Source of the DNA: Prolixibacteraceae bacterium | GTDB lineage: Bacteria; Bacteroidota; Bacteroidia; Bacteroidales; Prolixibacteraceae | Length of the DNA: 10,930 bases | Assembly (NCBI GenBank): GCA_014380255.1 | Contig: JACMKG010000161.1 | Span: 1 to 10,930, forward strand | Direction of reading: 5' to 3' | Shown here: positions 1,164-2,122 of the stretch, piece by piece | Position numbering within the stretch: position 1 is the stretch's first letter | Layout: each line of letters starts with the position of its first letter | Program-made: the position numbers and the translations under genes | The notes under the pieces: generated by a model | The model's input: the letters and a program-made list of their open reading frames with translations, nothing else | The model's database searches: none | What the model was told of the DNA's origin: nothing

Positions 1164-1278
1164 TTATGATTCCCTAATATAAACCTGAAATAATAAATAT
1201 TTTCATAATTCTTCATCTAATTAACGTAACCTTTTATTTTATTTAGTCGTATCCGTGTTTAATTTCTAATGCAAACAT

Positions 1279-1476
1279 TCAATACAAACTCAATATATTC
1301 TCAATACCGATTCAATGGTTGACAGGTAGATTATAGGTACATTATAGGTAGATTATAGGTACATTATAGGTTCACTAACCTATGATCTACCTGTTAGCAT
1401 CCTGTTATCAACCCTTCAACCATTGAGGGAGTATTGAATGTGTATTGACTCTGTTTTGACTCTGTATCAATGGTTG
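1279..1476. repeat. Mirror-symmetric array of 11-bp units upstream of the DUF6266-like gene
   Basis: TCAAT recurs at 1279, 1290, 1301 and 1312. AGGT then recurs at 1324, 1335, 1346, 1357 and 1368, with full units AGGTA(G/C)ATTAT. On the other side, ACCT-like units stand at 1378, 1389, 1400 and 1411, and TTGA at 1423, 1434, 1445 and 1456. Every step within a run is exactly 11 bp. The two arms mirror each other about position 1369. Perfect inverted pairs include TCAATGGTTGA (1312-1322) with 1416-1426, ACAGGTAGAT (1322-1331) with 1385-1394, ATAGGTT (1366-1372) with 1377-1383, and ACATTCAATAC (1275-1285) with 1431-1441. A further TCAATGGTTG at 1467-1476 ends the array, 22 bp before the ATG at 1499. 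The 11-bp step is close to one helical turn, so all units face the same side of the DNA. The function is unknown. Confidence 0.88.
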
Positions 1477-1498
1477 GATTTACTAATACATAAAGGTT

Positions 1499-2122
1499 AT
1501 GGCTAAAGTTATGGACGGAGCAAGTGCAAAGCTCTCGGGAAAGGCAGACGGAAGGGTTTATGTGCAGTTTAACGGCGGAACCTATACCCGCAGGCTACCA
1601 AGGCGCACCAAGGATTCTACATCACCGGGCATGCTGAAAAACCAGCAGCGCTTCAGGGAGGTCAACAGTTTTTGCAATCAGTTTAAAGAATCGGTCATCC
1701 CGCAGATTTGGAAAGGGGCGGCTCAAAGGATGAGTGGCTATGCCCTTTTCCTGAAATCGAACATGGTAGCTTTCGGGGTAGATGGCAGTGTGGTGGATGT
1801 GAAAAAGATAAAGCTATCCACCGGGAAACTTTCCTTCCCGGAAGGGTTTGAAGCACACCGTTCAGAAGTGAATAGCCACAGGATTGATGTAAGTTGGCCC
1901 AAGGAGATGAATGTGGGAGGAATTCACCTGAAGGATGAACTGATGGTGATCAGCTCTGACAATGGCTTGTATTCAGATATTACGGCTACGGGCATTACCA
2001 AGGCAGATTTGAAGGGAAGTTTTGAACTACCTGAGCTAACCGTTGAGGGAGCTCATCTTTACCTTTTCTTTTGTTCTAAGGATCACAGGGATTATTCGGA
2101 GAGCGTTTGCATAGAGATTTAA
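1499..2122 (+). CDS. DUF6266-like protein of unknown function
   Basis: This 207-residue protein has no signal peptide or membrane segment. Its N-terminal part (residues 1-92) carries the pattern SGKADGRVYVQFNGGTYTRR, then LP, then a Pro/Gln-rich turn (SPGMLKNQQRF, 42-52), a segment around IWKGAAQRMSGYALFLKSN (70-88) and AF. This matches the layout I know for DUF6266, a Bacteroidota family of about 200 residues with no known function. The C-terminal half (about 100-207) looks like an all-beta, immunoglobulin-like domain (RIDVSWP, DELMVISSDN, LYLFFCSKDHRDYSESVCIEI). The ATG follows AAAGG closely. The G+C content is visibly higher than in the very AT-rich upstream DNA, hinting at a different history. 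The gene sits between the 11-bp palindromic array and a hairpin repeat cluster. No catalytic motif is visible. The family call comes from remembered patterns, not a search. Confidence 0.65.
   Translation: MAKVMDGASAKLSGKADGRVYVQFNGGTYTRRLPRRTKDSTSPGMLKNQQRFREVNSFCNQFKESVIPQIWKGAAQRMSGYALFLKSNMVAFGVDGSVVDVKKIKLSTGKLSFPEGFEAHRSEVNSHRIDVSWPKEMNVGGIHLKDELMVISSDNGLYSDITATGITKADLKGSFELPELTVEGAHLYLFFCSKDHRDYSESVCIEI

Follow-up and report, generated by a model that had tools for sequence, protein, structure and literature searches.

An exact 11-bp repeat ladder accompanies the DUF6266 gene family

In a 10,930-nucleotide contig from a Prolixibacteraceae bacterium (assembly GCA_014380255.1, contig JACMKG010000161.1; hereafter the window), a ladder of 11-bp units arranged in two inverted arms precedes a gene for a DUF6266-like protein. 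Such an exact 11-bp ladder goes with the DUF6266 gene family far more often than with other genes. Among close relatives 30 of 42 had one upstream, and among wider family members 16 of 81, compared with 3 of 233 and 2 of 254 upstream regions in two control sets; one of the two matches among the 254 (locus L128) is itself a DUF6266–ladder locus. The link between array and gene, which an earlier note on this DNA had proposed from the letters alone, was thus upheld against control upstream regions. The association is real, conserved and, within reach of our searches, undescribed: in a literature search that lacked most subscription journals and all bioRxiv preprints, no paper named DUF6266 and none was recognised as describing these ladder repeats.

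The relatives came from two surveys. The first comprised 68 loci and the window, drawn from 102 loci after removal of duplicates, contig-edge or partial copies and larger copies of the same places. The second comprised 54 new loci out of 56; the gene start was unmatched in L141 and L154, which were left out. For the set of 254 control upstreams, 144 that belonged to DUF6266 regions were excluded. The number of shuffles per sequence was 20 for genes and 10 for controls in the first survey, and 15 in the second survey and the 254-upstream control.

In the window, the ladder spans positions 1279–1467 and is built as two concentric shells around a centre of symmetry at 1369 (1361–1377). The left outer shell (1279–1322, plus strand) consists of four 11-bp units starting with TCAAT at 1279, 1290, 1301 and 1312, and the left inner shell (1324–1371, plus strand) of AGGTA(C/G)ATTAT units with AGGT at 1324, 1335, 1346, 1357 and 1368. 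The inverted counterparts follow on the minus strand: the right inner shell (1378–1421), with ACCT-like units at 1378, 1389, 1400 and 1411, and the right outer shell (1422–1467), made of (A)TTGA units with TTGA at 1423, 1434, 1445 and 1456. The seventeen landmarks at 11-bp steps in the earlier note are real, although in the ACCT-like run only 1378 and 1389 are exact ACCT, 1400 (TCCT) and 1411 (ACCC) each being one base off. The TCAAT landmarks have phase 3 modulo 11 and the AGGT and TTGA landmarks phase 4, so the phase is kept through both arms within 1 bp. The mirroring about 1369 was likewise confirmed, the arms 1279–1360 and 1378–1459 being 72% complementary with 17 nucleotides between them. 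Tandem Repeats Finder reported a period of 11 (or 22) at 1279–1307, 1324–1371 and 1431–1467. Over 1271–1480, identity was 0.60 at lag 11 and 0.48 at lag 22, compared with 0.18–0.32 at the remaining lags from 6 to 24, and the ladder stood out from dinucleotide shuffles with Z = 8.5. The ATG at 1499 lies 23 bp beyond the end of the lag-11 tract (the earlier note had 22 bp), and at the threshold used there was no further such tract in the window.

The gene itself (1499–2122, plus strand) encodes a protein of 207 amino acids. It matched no Pfam family, even at E = 10, and the DUF6266 label, which the earlier note had given it, holds only through homology: 196 homologs were found at E ≤ 1e-3, and among the 120 of them that were listed, P0111 (54% identical) and P0120 (53%) carry PF19781.5 (DUF6266). 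Of five homolog taxa named, four were Prolixibacteraceae and one Candidatus Saccharibacteria; two relative loci that we examined were both from Prolixibacteraceae. The net charge of the protein is +11 over residues 1–90 and −7 over the remainder, a division that recurs in 15 of 15 family members (+10 to +16, and −1 to −9, respectively). In the second structure model (93 sequences, mean predicted local distance difference test (pLDDT) score 87.4), the basic N-terminal half is predicted to form a beta hairpin and helices, and the C-terminal part (about 109–207) a beta sandwich resembling FN3/Ig-type domains. No catalytic domain was detected by Pfam (window protein), by PHROGs and NCBIfam (25 members) or by a search of PDB sequences, and histidine is absent from the invariant or nearly invariant columns of alignments A1 and A3.

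Several copies of the gene may occur in one genome, each group of paralogs with a ladder spelling of its own. In genome G001 the close profile of the family has 33 matches, several of them broken; several places there match the A1 profile and also, weakly, PF19781. Its gene-linked spellings include ACACACAAGGT (L003), ACAGATAGAAC (L007, L019, L021), TTCGAATAAGC (L009), AAGTACGAGAT (L027), CATACAGAAAC (L026) and GGRATACCCAA (the L013 group). The spelling is private to the paralog group, while arms within one group differ by 22-bp steps: among the seven paralogs of the L013 group the core, which contains a TATCTTTG-type box, is almost invariant, but the left arm is 22 bp longer in one member and the right arm 22 bp shorter in three. 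Homology between members starts mostly at −370 to −150 relative to the ATG and stops mostly at +595 to +680, from which it follows that the shared unit is the ladder plus the gene; in one comparison with another group it reaches about +990. Gene-linked ladders may also be one-armed (L085, L100) or strongly unequal (L083, with five units in one arm and one in the other). At the 3′ end of the ladder–gene unit, L064–L067 have ACGAATTACACGAATT-type repeats directly after the gene.

Ladders also occur without the gene, and in three genomes such solo ladders are spelled like a gene-linked one. With pattern matches that count overlapping places in one ladder repeatedly, the L007 spelling had 76 matches in G001 at up to 3 mismatches (4 for the reversed-pattern control), 29 of them exact and three of these known gene-linked copies; the L013 spelling, with up to 2 mismatches allowed, had 47 (control 1), and a TCAAT ladder in G043 had 178 at up to 2 mismatches (control 5). 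The G043 ladder lies directly upstream of a DUF6266 gene (L061) and was found in none of the other 139 family genomes searched. In a search with the window's own ladder, in which the best candidates per genome were scored, G002 had five places, 72–83% identical over 89–189 bp. One is gene-linked (L002/L014) and four (L227–L230) have no gene nearby, with no profile match to the gene on their contigs; the TCAAT outer shell recurs in both kinds. Genomes G025 and G050 have more places for a TCTGTGTA-type ladder, some of them gene-linked. No DUF6266 match was found in the flank examined for 64 of 66 places, which is not a genome-wide rate because the 66 were chosen outside places known as gene-linked, and one of them (L203) is cut by the contig end on the side where the gene would lie. 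The other two show gene remnants of 38 and 92 amino acids (L199, L202). Eight of 22 solo copies sit between convergent open reading frames (ORFs).

Genome G001 also holds a dispersed element of about 390 bp with a promoter-like left end and, by eye, a short open frame in some copies. Its copies have distinct ladder cores between common flanks. Including the query's own copy, 21 left-end and 15 right-end matches were found among 58 loci; the element was assigned to L180, L182, L184, L185, L188, L190–L192, L195, L198, L201 and L209–L218.

The dispersed copies allowed conservation to be followed along the ladder in one population, that of G043, where 21 of 22 copies were aligned on their centre (L239, which is not centred, was left out). 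Conserved positions recur every 11 bp: the autocorrelation of per-column entropy at 11 bp was 0.54 in the left arm and 0.47 in the right, and at most 0.21 at other lags from 5 to 16, with a half-site AAYTCART and three loose positions. The arms showed no base-pair covariation. Pairing of a copy's own arms was not above that of shuffled arms (79.9% versus 80.9%) or above pairing between copies (p = 0.997), and GT and AC mismatches were about equally frequent (89 and 95). Conservation at 11 bp without pairing means that the mirror symmetry in G043 is a symmetry of sites. The earlier note had left the choice between protein binding on one DNA face and a cruciform or RNA hairpin; binding fits better for this reason.

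Putative promoter elements fall in the same region. In 35 ladder upstreams, TAnnTTT[GAC] boxes occurred 45 times, compared with 20.9 expected by shuffling and 17 on the opposite strand, and 28 of the 35 had a box (15.8 expected), although these counts are not independent, as the sample includes paralogs. A number of relatives have a −7-like box (TAnnTTTG type) within the ladder or next to it; in several loci, e.g., L007, L026, L092 and the L013 group, it falls between units or directly beside them. Where a box sits among the units, a protein bound to the ladder would block transcription.

These boxes, together with the basic N-terminal half and the structure model, led us to propose self-recognition, autoregulation and REPIN-like dispersal of the ladders. 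Each 11-bp unit of the ladder would be one binding site, and the sites would be lined up in two inverted arms that surround or adjoin the gene's promoter. The DUF6266 protein would bind along one face of the DNA through its basic N-terminal half, occlude the promoter and thereby control its own gene. Solo ladders would be dispersed, non-autonomous copies still bound by the same protein, as REPINs are to RAYTs but without a recognised transposase, and each gene–ladder pair would form its own specificity group. We give this explanation an even chance. Binding, autoregulation and mobility are what we infer, and whether DUF6266 is the binder is the main uncertainty. The earlier note's interpretation is partly supported, its idea of a protein that recognises its own array being still a proposal; it had missed the private spellings, the one-armed gene-linked ladders and the scattered solo ladders.

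Several observations weigh against this explanation. Compared with real intergenic upstreams, the enrichment of boxes is modest (1.29 versus 0.84 per 220 bp, with at least one box in 80% versus 61%), and TAnnTTT[GAC] was not found in the ladder region of the window. In 20 G001 copies, the arms of two outer stretches match better within a copy than between copies (p < 1e-4), and GT mismatches exceed AC mismatches (128 versus 90); the inner stretch gave no within-copy signal (p = 0.20). Either both arms need the same site spelling in G001, or pairing or gene conversion acts there.

The DUF6266–ladder system works partly like REPIN/RAYT and parC, but is a member of neither, because no Y1 transposase was found and no ParM is among the three neighbouring ORFs tested. 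In the excerpted text of PMC3116915 and PMC6006769, REPIN/RAYT systems combine REP (repetitive extragenic palindromic) doublets with cognate tyrosine transposases, the gene having adjacent palindromes with copies dispersed in the genome. The DUF6266 gene likewise has an adjacent palindrome with copies dispersed in the same genome, and cognate dispersed palindromes are present for relatives in G001, G002 and G043. However, no HUH/Y1 transposase was found in DUF6266 (Pfam, PHROGs, NCBIfam, PDB sequences), the palindrome is made of 11-bp units over about 110–230 bp rather than a REP doublet, and the gene is multi-copy in some genomes. Bacteroidetes TnpA_Y1 subclass 2.6 genes, in the same excerpts of PMC6006769, are also flanked by atypical structures copied elsewhere in the genome, but encode a Y1 transposase, to which DUF6266 has no match. 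The direct repeats of parC, according to parts of PMC9426499, adjoin the promoter of the gene, measure 11 bp in plasmid R1 and differ in sequence between families; a reference title therein has ten R1 repeats flanking the promoter (further partial sources on known systems: PMC3733652, PMC9723704). DUF6266 shares the 11-bp repeats beside the gene, with the promoter there inferred from the modestly enriched box that the window lacks. Unlike parC, the ladder has inverted arms and dispersed solo copies, and three neighbouring window ORFs tested (DUF1648, one without a match and a PDDEXK nuclease) include no ParM. No match to phage or plasmid records was found. With regard to the ribbon-helix-helix fold of ParR, the whole-protein model has a beta hairpin and helices followed by a beta sandwich.

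In a different account, the ladders would form the ends or the body of a miniature inverted-repeat transposable element (MITE)-like mobile element. DUF6266, by itself or together with a host enzyme, would move or copy them, and control of the gene would be a by-product. The many dispersed copies, the gene remnants in L199 and L202 and the presence of ladder-plus-gene units on different contigs agree with this. So do the ends: in one G001 family, own copy excluded, 11 of 20 left-end matches start at query positions 79–88 and 14 of 14 right-end matches stop at 108–120, and several G043 copies have similar termini. We nevertheless consider it unlikely, given the lack of a detected catalytic domain in the searches above, the absence of a target-site duplication seen by eye, and per-unit conservation that resembles binding sites.

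Regulators that read 11-bp direct repeats are known, e.g., those of the OmpR/PhoB type, and a host regulator of this sort might bind the ladders, with DUF6266 as a regulated passenger. One spelling can indeed be common to distant DUF6266 proteins. However, several unrelated spellings occur within one genome, each at DUF6266 genes, the G043 spelling was found in only 1 of 140 family genomes, and solo copies also lie between convergent ORFs, which makes this quite unlikely.

It is improbable that the symmetry serves base pairing, whether in a hairpin of the leader RNA or in a DNA cruciform there. The window does fold well as RNA (1260–1500, z −7.1), long palindromes occur in G002 and G043, and in G001 the outer arms of a copy match each other. 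On the other hand, covariation was absent in the 21 G043 copies, and for the 240 bp upstream the fold of the opposite strand is almost as stable (−76.3 versus −80.4 kcal/mol). Folding is better on the sense strand in 18 of 42 gene-linked regions and in 14 of 23 others, with no consistent preference. Searched at gathering scores, Rfam gave no match to the window or to 15 loci (16 sources). The one-armed ladders of L085 and L100 and the unequal ladder of L083 make pairing unlikely as a general purpose. A neutral minisatellite grown by slippage within a palindrome would suit the 22-bp steps in arm length, but is very improbable, as the ladders go with a single gene family and keep to a period of exactly 11 bp, and about 6 of the 11 positions are periodically conserved across dispersed copies.

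Returning to DUF6266 as the binder, a broader and more tentative reading, which we rather doubt, is that the protein and its private ladders belong together as a new kind of pair, selfish or chromosome-organising, in which a sequence-specific DNA binder without enzymatic activity owns dispersed mirrored ladders; each pair would be a separate specificity group, with many pairs per genome free of cross-talk, like plasmid incompatibility groups. If true, a protein family of no known function would gain a testable one, and a class of long, ordered repeats of Bacteroidota, high-copy in one genome, would gain an owner. A genome with several paralogs, each with its private ladder, would then offer a natural series for deciphering a DNA-recognition code.

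Some smaller features were noted around the ladder and gene. Upstream of the ladder, the two arms of a 27-bp inverted repeat (821–847 and 1145–1171; 93% complementary) enclose 297 bp and may mark a small element of their own. After the gene, a CCGCTAACGCGG stretch with adjoining GGTGCGT-type sequence is repeated at 2174–2195 and 2223–2244; in L001 a similar GGTGCAT-type sequence precedes the gene. At 2889–2946 there are short tandem repeats of 9 bp, ACCCTTATT and TGGATAAGGG. In L090, L091, L096, L099, L120 and L125, the DUF6266 gene is preceded by an ORF of about 70 amino acids that includes a hydrophobic stretch and has a lysine-rich end. Finally, ORFs near the gene in L159 (+788 to +1255, minus strand) and L172 (+1347, plus strand), positions being relative to the gene, presumably resemble IS200-type and REP-associated Y1 transposases.
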